From: Gammaproteobacteria bacterium
Lineage (GTDB): Bacteria > Pseudomonadota > Gammaproteobacteria > DSM-19610
NCBI GenBank assembly: GCA_026197075.1
Contig: JAPHQV010000025.1
Location: 1-64,000 of the forward strand
DNA: 64,000 nt
Direction: 5' to 3'
Shown here: positions 41,068 to 49,700 of the stretch, piece after piece
Layout of the letters: every line of letters starts with the position of its first letter
How positions within the stretch are numbered: the first letter of the stretch is position 1
Made by a program: the position numbers and the translations under genes
The notes under the pieces: generated by a model
What the model was told of the DNA's origin: nothing
The model's input: only the letters and a program-made list of their open reading frames with translations
Databases searched by the model: none

Positions 41068-42534
41068 ATGCAATACCGTGACCTGCGCGACTTCATTGCC
41101 CAGCTGGAAAGCCGCGGCCTGCTCAAACGCATCCAGGCCGAGGTGGATCCCTGCCTGGAGATGACCGAGATCTGCGACCGCACCCTGCGCGCCGGCGGAC
41201 CCGCGCTGCTGTTCGAGAATGCCAAGGGGCATTCGGTCCCGGTGCTCGGTAACCTGTTCGGCACGCCGGAACGGGTTGCACTGGGCATGGGCGAGGAATC
41301 GGTCGACGCGCTGCGCGAGGTGGGCCGGCTGCTTGCCTTCCTCAAGGAACCGGAACCGCCCAAGGGCTGGCGCGATGCCCTGGACAAGCTGCCCCGCTAC
41401 AAGAAGGTGCTCGACATGGCACCGAAGGTGGTGAAGAAGGCCCCCTGCCAGGAGGTGGTGCTGGAAGCCGAGGCGGTGGATCTGTCCCGCCTGCCCATCC
41501 AGACCTGCTGGCCCGGTGATGCCGGCCCGCTCATCACCTGGGCGCTGGTGGTCACCCGGGGACCGTACAAGGAGCGGCAGAACCTGGGCATCTACCGCCA
41601 GCAGGTCATCGGTCGCAACCGGGTCATCATGCGCTGGCTGGCGCACCGTGGCGGCGCGCTGGACTACCGTGACTGGCAGGAGGCCCACCCCGGTGAACGC
41701 TTCCCCGTGGCCGTGGCCCTGGGTGCCGATCCTGCCACCATCCTCGGTGCCGTCACGCCAGTGCCCGACAGCCTGTCGGAGTACGCCTTCGCCGGCCTGT
41801 TGCGCGGCTCGAAAACCGAACTGGTACAGTGTCTGGGCAGCGAACTGCAGGTACCGGCCAGCGCCGAGTTCGTGCTGGAAGGCTACCTGGAACCGGGCGT
41901 CGAGGCCGACGAGGGACCCTTCGGCGATCACACGGGCTACTACAACGAGGTGGACCGCTTCCCGGTGTTCACCATCGAGCGCATCACCCACCGCCGCGAT
42001 CCCATCTACCACAGCACCTACACCGGCCGCCCCCCCGACGAGCCGGCGGTGTTGGGCGTGGCACTGAACGAGGTGTTCGTGCCCCTGCTGCAAAAGCAGT
42101 TCCCGGAGATCACCGATTTCTACCTGCCGCCTGAGGGCTGTTCCTACCGCATGGCGGTGGTGAGCATGAAGAAACAGTACCCCGGCCACGCCAAACGGGT
42201 GATGTTCGGCGTCTGGTCCTTCCTGCGCCAGTTCATGTACACCAAGTTCGTCATCGTCACCGACGACGATGTCAACGTGCGCGACTGGCAGGACGTGATC
42301 TGGGCCATGACCACGCGCATGGACCCGGTACGCGACACCCTGCTGGTGGAGAACACCCCCATCGACTATCTCGATTTCGCCTCGCCGGTATCCGGCCTGG
42401 GTGGAAAGATCGGCTTCGACGCCACCAACAAACTGCCCGGGGAAACCAGCCGCGAGTGGGGCCGTCCCATCGTCATGGACGAGGCGGTTAAACAGCGCGT
42501 GGATAGCCTCTGGAACGAGCTCGGTATCGACTGA
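41068..42534 (+). CDS. ubiD: UbiD, 3-octaprenyl-4-hydroxybenzoate decarboxylase
   Basis: 488 residues from [19 protein letters not shown] (E. coli 497). The prFMN-dependent decarboxylase signature runs throughout: [105 protein letters not shown] and [28 protein letters not shown]. It removes the carboxyl group in ubiquinone synthesis. The frame is open 33 codons upstream, but the chosen ATG matches the family. The 3' end overlaps a convergent gene by 47 bases. Confidence 0.96.
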
Positions 42535-43156
42535 CGTATCGGACACCGCCCAACATGGCCACACCTGCCAGCAGCAATCCAGCGGCGGGGGGCAGAGGCA
42601 CGAGAGCCTGCGGTGTCCCGTTCACGCTCTGGACATTGATCGATGAGTGAAGCACCAGGCCACGGTCTTCCGTCAATTCGGGAAGCCCCGACCAGGGCGG
42701 GGGGTGGCCAAGCTCCAGGCTCATGCCCTGGTCGCCGGTGAACGCCACCATCGCATCGGTCAGTGACACGAAAGGTTGCGCAAGCTGTTGCTGAAGATCG
42801 CGCGTGAAGGAATCGTCCTCCGCCTGTCCTCCATCATTCGATGACCAAGGCAGGTTTGGAGACAGCACGAGCAGTGAACTCGCACTCCCACGCAGCATCG
42901 GCAATAAAGTCGCGTTCTGCTCACCGGAAAGTATGCGCTCCTTCAAGATCTCCTTCATGTCATCCAGGCGTATATCCACCACACAGGTGGCTGCGATGAT
43001 GCCGGCACCAAACCGATCATCGCGAATGGCATGCACACTTTTGCAGACTTGTCTGACGTCGTAGCCGACAGTCGCTGCACTGGTGTTCGCGGGGAAGGCA
43101 AGAAGCATGGAATGGTAAAGTACTGCGGAAATGGCGGTGCAATATCGGTGTTTCAT
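42488..43156 (-). CDS. Secreted protein with VPxxP-type C-terminal sorting signal
   Basis: 222 residues from [21 protein letters not shown] (GGAGG upstream), with a probable signal peptide ending near TSAA. The body is not recognised. The C-terminus has the tripartite form of PEP-CTERM/VPxxP sorting signals: VPLPPAAG, then a hydrophobic helix ([15 protein letters not shown]), then a basic tail ([12 protein letters not shown]). Such proteins are processed by an exosortase and often belong to extracellular matrix. No exosortase is in the window. It overlaps ubiD at the 3' end and lies at the border of the Fap-like locus. Confidence 0.65.
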
Positions 43157-43767
43157 TGCAGACCTCCTGTCGTGGTGAATGATTTCACCCCGATTCCTAG
43201 CCTTGCACACTTCGCATCAAATGCAAGCGTTCACCTTAGTCGGGACGATCGTCGATCTGAACGCATGATCAACGAACATCGCAGCGACATTTCACTCATG
43301 CATCAAACCTGTGACAAATGGATGCACGCAGTCAGCGCATTGATAATCAGTCTTTTCCGGGCCAATGCTTCAGCATGGATTGAGTTTTATGTCACACGTC
43401 AGTGACAACAGCGTATGCGTACCGGCAAATACCTTCCTTGTCATGATGCCTGCACGTCAATCATGCAAGGCACGGTAAGAAACTGATTATTCATCGCTTT
43501 GATGCACCACAGGCGACCACGCCTTTATCGCGATGGCGCTGATAGCACAGATTTCAGCCCGTTCCACTTGTCGCAATTCGGGATCGTTCATCGGAATCCT
43601 CAATAGCCACTGTACCGTGGCCACCAATCAATCACCTTGAAATACAGAAGCTTCGCTACGAAACCTGTCAATGGCACGATGCTTGCTGGCTGCTTACTTC
43701 TCGGTTGCATAGCGCGCCTGAGAATGATCCATACAGAACGGCAACCTCAAGGAACAGGAGAATTCCA
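43157..43767. other. 611-bp upstream region of the Gly-rich gene, gene-free
   Basis: AT-richer than the flanks. It carries the sigma-54 promoter at 43672-43687. At 43626-43640, about 45 bases before the -24 element, AATCAATCACCTTGA resembles an IHF site but has one extra base in the spacer. No credible reading frame was found. The size leaves room for activator binding sites. Confidence 0.6.
43672..43687 (+). promoter_or_regulatory. Sigma-54 promoter (-24/-12)
   Basis: TGGCACGATGCTTGCT matches the consensus TGGCAC-N5-TTGCW at every fixed position, with the correct GG-to-GC spacing. Transcription would start near 43698, giving a leader of about 70 bases to the Gly-rich gene at 43768. A VpsR-like sigma-54 activator is encoded 4.5 kb downstream. 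Confidence 0.88.
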
Positions 43768-45324
43768 ATGATCAAACATCAATATCTCGTTGCGGGATTA
43801 TCAGCCGTTGCCATGGCGGTACTGACCGCCACGGCAACTGCAAATCCAAAGGCCAAGTTCGGTGACAACAACGACCTGGCCGTGACAGCCACTGCAAATG
43901 CGAGCGCCGACGGTGGACAGGGCGGTGTCGCAGATGGCGGAAGTAGTGGTGACGTCTACGGCGGGGATGGCGGCGAAGGAGGCTATGGCGGCACCGCCAA
44001 TGCCAGCGACAGCACTGGTGGCGACGGCGGAGACAGCAACAACAGCGCCAGCCAGGCCCAGTCGGACGAATCGACGACCAACGACAACAATACCACCAAC
44101 TCAGGTACCGGTGGCGCCGGGGGTGCAAGCACCAATACCGCCGGCACCGCGGGTTCCGGCGGCGGTGGCGGCGCCGGTGGAACCGCCGGGAATTCCACCG
44201 GCGGAGTCGGTGGCAACTCCTATGGTGGTGCGGGAGGGACCGCGGAAGCCTATGCCGAGTCCTTCAACACCGACATCGAGGTAATCGCCTACCAGGAAAT
44301 GCACTCCAATGTCACGGGGGCACCCATCACCATCCACGGTGGTGTTTCCGGTAATGGTGGCATGGGAGGTAACGGTGGTAATGCCGGTAATGCCGGTGAT
44401 GGTGGCTATGGAGGTGATGCCGACTCCTACAGCTACGGAGATGCCGGGGACGGCGATGCCGGCGGTGATACCGACAGCGCAACCGCCTGGGGCGATGGTG
44501 ATGGCGGCTACAGCGGCATGACCGGGAATGCCGATTCCTACGGCGACGGTGACGGCGGAGACAGCAACAACAATGGCAATGCTGATGCCGCGGGCCATGG
44601 TGACGGTGGCTATGGCGGCAGCGGTGGCGAGGGCGGCTATGCTGATGCCTATGGAGACGGTGACGCGGATGGCGCCATGGGTGGCAGTGGTGGCAGTGGC
44701 GGAAATGCCGGTACAGGTACCGACAACAACGCCAATGACGATGCAGTGGACACCGCGGGCGACGACCGCGCAGGCAACGACAACAACCAGGCCAATGGCG
44801 CGGCTGGCGCAGCCGGTGGTGCCGGAGGATCCACCAGCAACGGAGCCAATACCGCAAGCGGTGGCGGCGGAGGTGCCGGCGCAAGCGGTGGCGCAACCGC
44901 CAATGGCACTAACACGGCCATGGGTGGAAATGGTGGTGCAGGTGGATCCAGCACCAATGGATCCAACACAGCCACATCCGGTAACAGTGGTGCTGGCGGC
45001 GCAACCTCCAATGGCGGCAACACCGCATCCACCGGTGACGGCGGTGATGGTGGTGCTGGCGGCTCCACCGCCAATGGCAATAACACGGCCATGGCCGGAA
45101 ACGGTGCGGCTGGCGGCAATGGTGGCAATGGCGGCAACGGCGGTGCCGGCGGCGACAGCGGCGATGCCGTTGGCGGTGCCCTGACCACCGGCGCGGTCAG
45201 CGTCAACGTGGGTGCTGGCACCTTCGGCGGCATCAACAACCTCAACATCTCATCGGGTCTCTACAACTCGACACTTGGCGGTGTAGCCGTGGCGGCACAC
45301 TCCGGTGTCAGCATCGGAAACTGA
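43768..45324 (+). CDS. Secreted Gly/Asn/Asp-rich repeat protein (putative matrix or fibre subunit)
   Basis: 518 residues from MIKHQYLVAGLSAVAMAVLT with CAGGAG upstream and a signal peptide cleaved near TATAN. The mature protein is glycine-dominated, acidic, free of cysteine and nearly free of Lys/Arg. The first half is built of GGxGG and (D)GDGG blocks (YGGDGGEGGYGG, YGDGDGGDSNNNGNA). The second half has five imperfect 18/21-residue repeats of the form NG-x-NTA-xx-G-xx-GAGG. The last 45 residues are not repetitive (GTFGGINNLNISSGLYNS, VAAHSGVSIGN). It is the first gene behind the sigma-54 promoter. I recognise no family; a Fap-like extracellular fibre or matrix protein is inferred from its neighbours. 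Confidence 0.75.
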   Translation: MIKHQYLVAGLSAVAMAVLTATATANPKAKFGDNNDLAVTATANASADGGQGGVADGGSSGDVYGGDGGEGGYGGTANASDSTGGDGGDSNNSASQAQSDESTTNDNNTTNSGTGGAGGASTNTAGTAGSGGGGGAGGTAGNSTGGVGGNSYGGAGGTAEAYAESFNTDIEVIAYQEMHSNVTGAPITIHGGVSGNGGMGGNGGNAGNAGDGGYGGDADSYSYGDAGDGDAGGDTDSATAWGDGDGGYSGMTGNADSYGDGDGGDSNNNGNADAAGHGDGGYGGSGGEGGYADAYGDGDADGAMGGSGGSGGNAGTGTDNNANDDAVDTAGDDRAGNDNNQANGAAGAAGGAGGSTSNGANTASGGGGGAGASGGATANGTNTAMGGNGGAGGSSTNGSNTATSGNSGAGGATSNGGNTASTGDGGDGGAGGSTANGNNTAMAGNGAAGGNGGNGGNGGAGGDSGDAVGGALTTGAVSVNVGAGTFGGINNLNISSGLYNSTLGGVAVAAHSGVSIGN

Positions 45325-45345: not shown

Positions 45346-45377
45346 CTGGCGGGCCATCCCCGGCCCGCCAGTTTTTT
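45346..45377 (+). terminator. Intrinsic terminator between the Gly-rich gene and the rest of its operon
   Basis: CTGGCGGGCC (45346-45355) pairs perfectly with GGCCCGCCAG (45362-45371) and is followed by six T. It lies 22 bases after the Gly-rich stop and 38 before the next start. If it works partially it would give high expression of the Gly-rich protein and low expression of the processing genes. Confidence 0.88.
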
Positions 45378-45414: not shown

Positions 45415-45792
45415 ATGAAAACGAAATGCTGGGAACAAGCGTGTGAAAGATTGCCTGCCAAGATCCTGGCCGCACTCCTGACGACGGCAAGCAGCAACCT
45501 ACTGGCTGATGATCATGCCAGTGACCTGGATTCCCTGAACGTGGCCAATTCCATCGAGCTCGACGCGTTGCGCGGCATGAATGGCGACACGCGCATTCGG
45601 GTGGAAACCAATCAGCAATTGAATGCCAGCGTGACCGGCAGCAGTTTCACGGCGGGCACGATCACCGGGGGCTCGGTCACCTTTGCCGAGAATGCCCTGG
45701 AAAATTTCAGCGGTATCGGCCTTTTCAATGTGGTGACCGGGAACAATAACGCGGTGGACTCGGCCATCGGTGTCACTTTCAACATGCAATAA
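45415..45792 (+). CDS. Small secreted protein of the Fap-like locus, with ELDALRGM motif
   Basis: 125 residues with AGAGG before the ATG. A weak N-terminal hydrophobic segment (PAKILAALLTTASSNLLA) may be a signal peptide. At residues 48-55 ELDALRGM resembles the ELEAQRGG leader motif of the protein encoded at 46517, with GM instead of GG. The C-terminal part is rich in Asn, Thr, Ser and Gly with alternating hydrophobics (ASVTGSSFTAGTITGGSVTF, NVVTGNNNAVDSAIGVTFNM), fitting beta-strand or fibre-like sequence. It is seven bases upstream of the C39 peptidase gene. No known family recognised; it may be a minor fibre component or peptidase substrate. Confidence 0.65.
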   Translation: MKTKCWEQACERLPAKILAALLTTASSNLLADDHASDLDSLNVANSIELDALRGMNGDTRIRVETNQQLNASVTGSSFTAGTITGGSVTFAENALENFSGIGLFNVVTGNNNAVDSAIGVTFNMQ

Positions 45793-45799
45793 CCGAAAC

Positions 45800-46513
45800 A
45801 TGCAAACCGTACATTTGTCATTGCGGGTCTGTTGCTTGTTCACATTCCTGCTGATTGCCGGACAGGCCAACCACGCCCTTGGCGGCCAGGTATTGATTCA
45901 GGGTTTCCCCGGATCCTTTTCGGTGCCGGTAAAAAGTCTCAAGGAAGCGCGCTGGGACAGGGTAATCCGACAGCAATATGATTTCAGTTGCGGCTCGGCG
46001 GCGGTCGCCACCTTGCTGAGTCACCACTACGGGATGAAGATCGATGAGGCGGAGGTTTTCCAGGCCATGTTCAAGGCCGGCGACCAGGCCAAGATCCGCG
46101 CCGAAGGCTTTTCCATGCTCGACATGAAACGCTTCCTGGACAGCCAGGGACTTCAATCCGATGGCTTCCGCATGACGCTCGACCAGCTACTCAAAATAGG
46201 CGTTCCCGGCATCGTCCTGGTCAATACCCAGGGATACCGGCACTTCGTGGTACTGAGAGGCATGCGTGATGGGACCATACTCCTCGCCGATCCGGCCATC
46301 GGCTCGATTACCGTCCCACGCGCCCAGTTCGAAGCGATCTGGGATGGGACCGTCCTGGCTGCCCGCGCAAACCTTCAGGTGGCCAGAAATCATTTCAACA
46401 GCATCCGTGACTGGGAGCCCTGGCCTAGCGCGCCCATCACCCGGGGCATGGATCGATCCGGCTTGGGCATGTTCGTATTATCGTTGCCAGGACGCAACGA
46501 ATTAGGGAGATAG
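45800..46513 (+). CDS. Secreted C39-family peptidase, FapD-like
   Basis: 237 residues from MQTVHLSLRVCCLFTFLLIAG, a signal peptide. The C39 papain-like core has its catalytic Cys64 in RQQYDFSCGSAAVATLLSHHYG, His148 in GYRHFVVLRG and Asp164 in ILLADPAIGS. C39 enzymes cleave after double-glycine leaders; most are domains of ABC exporters, but FapD of the Pseudomonas Fap amyloid operon is a free, exported version with this same motif. Here no ABC domain follows, and the neighbours are a FapF-like barrel and secreted proteins with double-glycine-like motifs. It is tightly packed in an operon (7 and 3 base gaps). A frame-compatible GTG at 45770 lies within the preceding gene. Confidence 0.82.
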   Translation: MQTVHLSLRVCCLFTFLLIAGQANHALGGQVLIQGFPGSFSVPVKSLKEARWDRVIRQQYDFSCGSAAVATLLSHHYGMKIDEAEVFQAMFKAGDQAKIRAEGFSMLDMKRFLDSQGLQSDGFRMTLDQLLKIGVPGIVLVNTQGYRHFVVLRGMRDGTILLADPAIGSITVPRAQFEAIWDGTVLAARANLQVARNHFNSIRDWEPWPSAPITRGMDRSGLGMFVLSLPGRNELGR

Positions 46514-46516
46514 GCC

Positions 46517-47158
46517 ATGGACAATCCGTCACAATCGTATATGGATTACTGCCGTCTGGGTTCACTGGCGACACTCACCTGGCTGTCATGCAGCGTGACT
46601 GCCATTGCGTCACCTGCTGCTTCCGGCGGGTTTGCCTGTACCAGCTGTTCAGTGCTGTCCCAGCTTGAGCTCGAGGCGCAACGAGGCGGTTTTTCATTCG
46701 CCGGTCTCAACTTCGAGTTCGGCGCCAATATACGTTCCTTTATCGATAACCGCCTGGTCCTGGAAAGCATCATCACCATCACGCAAGAGGGGACCATTCA
46801 GCACCAGGCCGTCTCACTGCCGGACAACATGCCAGATACCACCCAGGTCACGAGCGTCGCGCCGCAGCCGGGGACATCCACTCCCAAGTCCACCATCACG
46901 AACGCACCATCCAACGTGGATCTTTCCGGGCTCGATAATGCCCTTGGCGTGAGCGTAAATGACCACAAGGGTTTCACCGCCGCCCTGCACGAAGCGACCC
47001 GTCAGCGCATCACCAGCACCCTCATCAATACCGCAAATCACCGTGATTTGCGTCAGGAACTCGAGGTCAGGGTCAATGTGGAGAACTTCCGACAGTTTCA
47101 CCAGGACGTGCGCCAGAGCCTGCTGAACAACCGCCTCGAATCTTCACGACTACGCTGA
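46517..47158 (+). CDS. Secreted protein with double-glycine leader motif (possible FapE-like component)
   Basis: 213 residues; AGGGAG precedes the ATG. The hydrophobic N-terminus (LGSLATLTWLSCSVTAIA) suggests export. Residues 47-58 read LSQLELEAQRGG, matching the double-glycine leader consensus LSxxELxxIxGG at all fixed positions but one. A CxxC pair lies just before (Cys41, Cys44). After the GG come FSFAGLNFEFGANIRSFI and IITITQEGTIQHQAVSL, a linker rich in Thr/Pro, and a helical C-terminus (FTAALHEATRQRITSTLINT, NFRQFHQDVRQSLLNN). It is the last plus-strand gene of the cluster. It may be processed by the C39 peptidase upstream. A FapE relationship is possible but I could not verify it. Confidence 0.65.
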   Translation: MDNPSQSYMDYCRLGSLATLTWLSCSVTAIASPAASGGFACTSCSVLSQLELEAQRGGFSFAGLNFEFGANIRSFIDNRLVLESIITITQEGTIQHQAVSLPDNMPDTTQVTSVAPQPGTSTPKSTITNAPSNVDLSGLDNALGVSVNDHKGFTAALHEATRQRITSTLINTANHRDLRQELEVRVNVENFRQFHQDVRQSLLNNRLESSRLR

Positions 47159-47193: not shown

Positions 47194-48254
47194 TCATATC
47201 GCATAGGGCAGACGCAGGGTGATCCCCACGTCTGGGGCGTCCGCGGTTATCCCCAGCTCCAGGTTCACATTGGCATTGAGTCGATCACTAATGCGGTGAC
47301 TGAAACCCAGCAGCAAGGAGCCCACGTCCAGACTGGAACTCGACAGGTTCACACCGTTGATCGTGGTGCTACTCGAGCGGATGAAATCGTGCTTGTACCC
47401 GAGCGAGAACGAGGCGCGTGAATTGATCGAATAGGCCATACCGAAACTGAAGCGGACCACGTCACCCGGATCCACATTGCCAATGGTCTGGTCATCGCTC
47501 CCCTCAACCACGAAGGTCTTGTTGACGTCCTCGTCGAAATTATACAGATACCCAAGGTTTGCATAGAACACCGCGGGATCGGATGGGTACAGCGCCGTCA
47601 CGCTGGGCTCCACCGCATGGAAACCGGATCCGGTGGGCAGGCTGGTCTGTATCCCCGCGCTGTTGCGTGACACATCATAGGGACCCTCACCCGTGGTGGA
47701 CTTGTAGCGCAAGTTTCCAATGAAGATCGGCCAGCCATTCCTTCCGGCATTCATCTGGTAGTGCAGGGCCAGCTCCATATCTCCGATGCCATCACCTTCC
47801 AGGTCACGGGTGACTTGTGGTTCGCTGACGACGGAGGGAATGGTGGCCCGCAAAGTATCGTCACGCCAGATATAGGGCAGCCTGCCTTCTATTTCCAGCC
47901 TGGGTGTTATCCCATAGCGCAAGGTAAGCGCTGGTGAGATCAGGTTGCGGTCGGCATCCTCGGCTTCCAGTATACCGATCAGAAAGGTTTCCAGGATCTC
48001 GACGCCCAGGAACGACAGGCGGTTGATCTGGGAATTGGAGAATTGCAGGGAAGGCTCGATGACCCATGTTCCCTTCGGCGTCAGGACGCCGCCGATATTG
48101 GCGATCGCCTGTATCTCCGGTCGCGTCTCGACCGTGGGTTCAGGCGGCGCCTGGCCAACGGGCTGGTCCGGTGGCGGGACATCCGCCCAGGCCGCGGCAG
48201 GAAACATTATGGTCGTCACCAAAACGAATGAAAGGGAGTAATCATTTTTTTTGT

Positions 48255-48258
<4 letters not shown>
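47194..48258 (-). CDS. Outer-membrane beta-barrel protein, FapF-like transporter
   Basis: 354 residues. A signal peptide (ending MFPAAAWA) is followed by a Pro-rich segment (VPPPDQPVGQAPPEPTVETRP) and then GGVLTPKGTWVIEPSLQFSNSQINR, the start of a barrel. Amphipathic strands alternate to a C-terminal aromatic-poor strand, VGITLRLPYAI. The pattern TLRYGITPRLEIEGRLPYIWRDD belongs to the phenol-MetA-degradation/FapF superfamily. FapF is the trimeric pore that exports Fap amyloid subunits. The long coiled-coil plug helix of Pseudomonas FapF is not evident. The ATG overlaps the regulator stop (ATGA), so the two are translationally coupled. Confidence 0.7.

Positions 48259-49700
<1,442 letters not shown>

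Follow-up and report, generated by a model that had tools for sequence, protein, structure and literature searches.

Two exported proteins encoded in the window, the 64,000-nucleotide stretch of a gammaproteobacterial contig analyzed here, are likely to be precursors that leave the cytoplasm by Sec and have, as a second signal, a C39-type leader that is cut in the periplasm by a neighboring exported C39 peptidase. In the mechanism we propose, Sec would take the precursors encoded at 46517 and 45415 across the inner membrane, and each would have two successive N-terminal signals. The first would be an ordinary signal peptide, lost after export. The second would be a C39-type leader, in which a helix from -10 to -4 would present the hydrophobic residues at -12, -7, and -4 and would be followed by R-G-X. 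The Sec-exported peptidase encoded next to them (Cys64) would bind this leader in the periplasm and cut at RG(X), and the mature protein would be freed for assembly at, or passage through, the FapF-like barrel. The same rule would hold for FapD acting on FapE in Pseudomonas Fap and probably for FilB acting on FilA. Export and C39 recognition are suggested by sequence and by structural models; we infer that the leader is bound and cleaved, which bond is cut, and that processing is linked to passage through the outer membrane. Our analysis supports the original prediction that C39 leaders are cleaved in the periplasm at this locus.

The locus begins with a sigma-54 type -24/-12 box (TGGCACGATGCTTGCT) at 43672..43687 on the plus strand, an exact match to TGGCACGN4TTGCW and the sole exact one within the window. 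It lies 5′ of a plus-strand gene (43768..45324, with 54-nt tandem repeats) for a Gly/Asn-rich exported protein, recognized as an ORF with a hydrophobic N-terminus and degenerate repeats, which we regard as a candidate matrix or fiber component. A terminator-like hairpin of the intrinsic type (45346..45371, plus strand; 10 pairs, 9 of them G-C, then T6) forms the boundary between the Gly-rich gene and three closely spaced genes on the same strand. These encode a small exported protein of 125 aa, the putative second substrate (45415..45792; C-terminus GIGLFNVVTGNNNAVDSAIGVTFNMQ), an exported FapD/FilB-like C39 peptidase of 237 aa (45800..46513; Pfam Peptidase_C39, E 8.8e-23), and a FapE-position exported protein of 213 aa, the putative main substrate (46517..47158). 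On the minus strand are the genes for a FapF/FilC-like outer-membrane barrel without an N-terminal coiled coil (47194..48258) and for a sigma-54 activator with a VpsR-like N-terminal domain (48255..49700; Pfam Sigma54_activat 1.9e-69, VpsR 3.8e-8), the stop of the latter gene overlapping the start of the former. The barrel scored 133 bits against the NCBIfam FapF model (NF058560, cut-off 700) and 75 bits, also below cut-off, against FilC, and its gene is linked to the peptidase gene in most loci compared. The exact sigma-54 box, taken with the adjacent sigma-54 activator and its VpsR-like domain, suggests one regulon. Searches of Pfam and NCBIfam matched the 45415, 46517, and 43768 products to no family above cut-off, the FapB and FapC models being included for 43768. 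Signal peptides were assigned by a simple hydrophobicity rule. Elsewhere in the window, a minus-strand protein (42488-43210) has a VPLPA-CTERM-like C-terminus that scores under the curated cut-off.

The 45800 peptidase has a hydrophobic N-terminal signal and a C39 domain with Gln58, Cys64, His148, and Asp164 (precursor numbering), all four of which are invariant across 44 diverse homologues. The catalytic spacing is that of LahT (Q21, C27, H101, D117), and LahT with bound leader (6MPZ) was the top PDB profile match (4.4e-17). The AlphaFold2 (AF2) model of the peptidase (pLDDT 91) is predicted to be nearest in fold to the peptidase domains of PCAT1, ComA, and LahT. In a HMMER alignment, the PCAT1 pocket residues A55 and I59 appear to correspond to Met/Leu and Lys in the window peptidase family, so that a conserved leader groove is only a possibility. 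NCBIfam scores stayed under the cut-offs for both FapD (NF058616; 145 bits, cut-off 330) and FilB (NF050078; 131 bits, cut-off 475). In the peptidase tree, the window clade (24 rows, 100/99) is sister to a FapD clade (11 rows, 99/98), and FilB-type rows lie outside both. The residue at -1 of the motif described below differs by clade, being G or T in the window clade and R or K in the FapD clade, a link that may be mere inheritance by common descent. Other exported C39 genes were also encountered. In loci L147 and L152, whose C39 peptidases fall outside the Fap and window clades, small proteins encoded 5′ of the exported C39 gene have more classical sites (LNEQQLDSIYAG and LSNAQMDGVAAG, each followed by G). 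A single genome (G065, loci L160-L164) has seven exported C39-type matches, and several of these genes come directly after those for proteins of 270-350 aa in which sites of the form LSxxEMxxxxG(D/E/K/R) occur, for example LSEEEMQKITGE.

Residues 47-58 of the 46517 protein read LSQLELEAQRGG and are followed by F59 (46655..46693, plus strand; predicted helix at residues 49-55). PCAT1 substrates follow the C39 consensus L(-12)xxxE(-8)L(-7)xxxxG(-2)G(-1), in which residues -10 to -4 form a helix that lies on a hydrophobic groove (PMC6959990). All consensus positions agree in the 46517 motif. Its lone deviation is Q at -4, where a hydrophobic residue is common, and the claim that these residues fit a double-glycine leader at all but one position is confirmed in both ORF and sequence. 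The 45415 product, in which ELDALRGM had been noted, has ANSIELDALRGM at residues 44-55 (45544..45579, plus strand). That stretch is indeed present and its core positions fit (E at -8, L at -7, L at -4, and G at -2), but it is degenerate, with Ala at -12 and Met at -1. When scored with a matrix built from homologues, the 46517 site falls within the top 0.2-0.8% of controls, slightly flattered by the presence of its own site in the matrix, and the 45415 site falls within the top 4-5%. A motif match in a single sequence is only suggestive, and the case therefore rests on comparative evidence. For the 46517 protein, AF2 (mean pLDDT 69, about 71-86 near the motif) predicts an N-terminal coil, a helix at residues 49-55 that corresponds to -10 to -4, an extended RGG, and then a beta-rich domain; a fold search with the resulting model returned nothing significant. 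A leader helix from -10 to -4 is also found in PCAT1-CtA (PMC6959990) and, roughly so, in the LahT-leader complex (PMC6363468). Directly before the motif, the window protein has a CxxC pair (46631-46654; ACTSCSV-LSQ), as do two Geotalea FapE-position proteins from loci L046 and L060 (ECRDCSA-LAS and ECNDCRA-IAG).

For the comparison, a peptidase scan of 84,980 species genomes yielded 529 relatives, of which the best 80 of 529 were retained, and whole-genome searches supplied further FapD-like, FilB-like, and true Fap loci. Loci were collected by similarity to the window peptidase and FapD, and the neighboring genes were not picked by their sequence. Our test used position only: the next same-strand gene 3′ of the peptidase was taken in 115 loci from the window clade and its sister FapD clade. 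Such a gene was found directly 3′ of the peptidase in all 115. The strict motif [LM]x3R[GA]x[FYML] was present in 111 of these 115 downstream genes, as against 20 (3.5%) of 570 exported ORFs taken as controls from these loci. As for the exceptions, L209 has the variant LAQLRGKA, L051 and L057 bear the motif later in the protein, at residue 258-260 (LDTLRGGF and LDSLRGGF), and only a remnant (MAEKRGGF) is left in L049 because its start was wrongly called inside the motif. The original prediction had hinged on the motif being conserved where the peptidase is kept, and it is so, strictly in 111 of the 115 loci and on inspection in the remaining four.

The 115 loci form 36 clusters at 60% peptidase identity, and the alignment was weighted by cluster. 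In this alignment, R(-3) and L/M(-7) are each at 100%, G(-2) is at 97% with Ala making up the rest, a hydrophobic residue at -12 is at about 96%, and F/Y(+1) is at 92%. The columns for -3, -2, and -7 rank with the best-conserved ones of a divergent protein, most members of which share 11-41% identity with the 46517 product. By organism label, the loci come from alpha-, beta-, and gammaproteobacteria and from Geobacteraceae; two MAG contigs labeled Ignavibacteria (L052) and Akkermansia (L074) may have been binned wrongly. The motif starts anywhere from residue 29 to 256, and its distance to the signal peptide covers a wide range. The motif is real and does not arise by chance. A pattern drawn from the literature only (hydrophobic -12, L/M -7, hydrophobic -4, G-[GAS]) was dropped for poor separation of the classes, since -4 and -1 vary. 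Among the individual loci, the FapE-position proteins of alphaproteobacterial L048 and L068 begin with a lipobox (ISLSGC and VALSGC), so that a C39 cut there would release the protein from its lipid anchor. The peptidase gene is duplicated in L206 and L212, and each copy in L206 has its own downstream motif protein.

The motif also occurs on a second set of proteins. In the window clade, small exported proteins encoded just 5′ of the peptidase usually bear it (LDSAGLDALRGR, VPSQDLATMRGR, VDIETLAEQRGG, and VSEAELGHQRGT). With a matrix built from downstream proteins only, 65 of 80 upstream proteins lay beyond the 95th percentile for controls (Mann-Whitney p 1.5e-40, which overstates independence because the loci are related). 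FapF, and also some small first-gene proteins, bear the motif and contaminated the first controls; a later control set was free of FapF. Upstream proteins may have R, T, S, or N at -3, and R is frequent at -1. Small first-gene proteins of fap-type operons bear the motif as well (L127, LNDDQLGQVRGL; L128, IADEELSSMRGT; L132, LDDRALAGIRAR). Local profile similarity between the upstream and downstream families is weak outside the motif. The occurrence of one motif on otherwise different proteins is easily explained by shared recognition and hardly by a shared fold.

The link that had been drawn to FapD-like enzymes holds for the Fap system itself, as true FapE proteins bear the motif. True Pseudomonas FapE has it as LKDQELATLRGRY and LKDQELATLRGR, and the L200 protein matches the NCBIfam FapE model (NF058559) at 2.8e-64. 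The form LKD(Q/A/S)E(L/M)AxLRG(R/K)Y is encoded by the gene that follows fapD in six Pseudomonas-type loci whose peptidases exceed the FapD cut-off. An active Cys peptidase of the periplasm, FapD is required for secretion, and a Cys-to-Ala change abolishes FapC secretion (PMC5557850). Its substrate has been described as undetermined (PMC5557850, PMC6173800) and is only "thought" to include the FapE N-terminus (PMC12822426). Rouse et al. reported Fap proteins to be without canonical C39 sequences (PMC5557850), and we found no paper in the open-licence literature that names the motif. In published MS data, FapE alone was without peptides over its first ∼70 residues (PMC5557850), which agrees with the position of the motif within residues 29-50 of the FapE sequences compared here. 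Since trypsin would cut within R-G-R, these peptide data cannot fix the bond. Pseudomonas FapA (L200, L204, and L205) has a degenerate leader-like stretch (LSDGDFASVASG or LSDSDFAGVTSG); FapA peptides were detected throughout by MS (PMC5557850).

Like Pseudomonas Fap, the window combines an exported C39 peptidase, an adjacent exported protein with L-x3-E-L-x2-L-R-G-X, and a FapF-type barrel. Unlike Fap, the window peptidase belongs to a well-supported sister clade of FapD and scores far under the FapD cut-off, and no FapE, FapA, FapB, or FapC model matches within the window, the 46517 protein itself being unmatched in NCBIfam with the FapE equivalog NF058559 included. Furthermore, the window barrel is without the coiled coil and is encoded convergently, a Gly-rich protein occupies the place of FapB/FapC, and the window motif has G at -1 where FapE has R/K. 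Comparison of the mature FapE-like sets of both clades by hhalign gave weak local similarity outside the motif, and what ties the 46517 protein to FapE is thus its position and motif and not the remaining sequence.

A similar set of parts is found in the putative FilA/FilB/FilC pilus (NCBIfam names), which has an exported C39 peptidase, a barrel homologue, and an exported neighbor with a leader-like motif. FilB-type loci were analyzed apart, and early "best site" picks in them were discarded because they were not true neighbors. The FilA-type proteins recognized 5′ of FilB-type peptidases read LxxxxLxxVTG(Q/R)xG, as in IADEELGGVTGQAG (L218 is FilA by NF050077). In contrast to the window, FilA lies upstream of the peptidase, its positions -3 to -1 are T-G-Q, and FilB belongs to another peptidase clade. 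With the PCAT/AMS exporters (PCAT1-CtA, LahT, and ComA), the window system shares the C39 fold, the catalytic spacing, the leader consensus, and the predicted helix from -10 to -4. It differs from them in that the peptidase is a stand-alone, single-domain exported protein of 237 aa with no ABC transmembrane or ATPase domains, the putative substrates are exported by signal peptides, Arg stands at -3, and the range at -1 goes beyond small residues.

Four other explanations of the motif were weighed against periplasmic leader cleavage. It is unlikely, in our judgment, that R-G-G-F is a conserved structural element that opens the mature FapE-like domain and not a cleavage site. Conservation does extend 3′ of the motif, with F/Y at +1 and then F68-G69, so that part of it could be structural, and the AF2 model predicts that the motif leads straight into a strand. 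However, the motif is shared by small upstream proteins that are elsewhere only weakly similar and by the small fap-type first-gene proteins of L127, L128, and L132, with a related form in FilA. Its spacing is also that of a C39 leader, and it stands at variable distances from the signal peptide. The idea that the likeness arose by chance in an N-terminal region of low complexity gains from the odds of a single match, which are a few per cent for each exported protein, but it is refuted by the presence of the motif throughout 36 clusters in Pseudomonadota and Geobacteraceae.

The remaining explanations concern the peptidase. It could act as a chaperone or tether that binds the motif without cutting it, like the degenerate C39-like domain of HlyB, and HlyB-type domains are structural relatives. 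Because all 44 homologues keep the catalytic residues and secretion needs the FapD active-site Cys (PMC5557850), we find this very unlikely. Lastly, the FapF-like barrel could be the real target, through its periplasmic linker, with the motif elsewhere having another use. Cleavage of the FapF linker was in fact proposed (PMC5557850), and leader-like sites (LKEQLLSQSRGG, VSSADLDTQRGG, VPDSELERLAGR, and LDDEVLASARAR) occur at the end of the N-terminal coiled coil of FapF-like barrels in several loci, at residue 72 in L020, 67 in L142, 89 in L127, and 76 in L004 and L011; those of L066, L056, and L073 are at residues 73-81. Most barrel homologues nevertheless lack such a site, as does the window barrel, which has no coiled coil, and the FapE-position gene bears the motif practically always. 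These facts make the barrel linker an extremely improbable target.

For periplasmic leader cleavage, our preferred reading, the exact bond can be narrowed. A double-glycine cut had been anticipated. The leader consensus stands, but "GG" is not its constant part, which is instead R(-3) with G/A(-2). Since FapE has R/K at -1 and FilA has Q/R, as against G in the window clade, the cut may fall after RGX or after RG. The variability at -1 (G, R, K, T, M, A, or Q), set against the narrow double-Gly cleft of PCATs, means that the register may differ by one. More tentatively, and as a possibility that we hold to be somewhat doubtful, the exported C39 peptidases (window clade, FapD, and FilB) might form a general periplasmic "second leader" system. 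Here the C39-type leader, and not the mature protein, would route the cargo to a FapF-type barrel, and cutting would hand the cargo into the channel, making this an outer-membrane counterpart of PCATs without the ABC transporter. If leader cleavage occurs as we propose, the motif rule would name the FapD substrate and narrow the cut to two bonds, and it would predict substrates for many uncharacterized exported C39 peptidases, FilB included.
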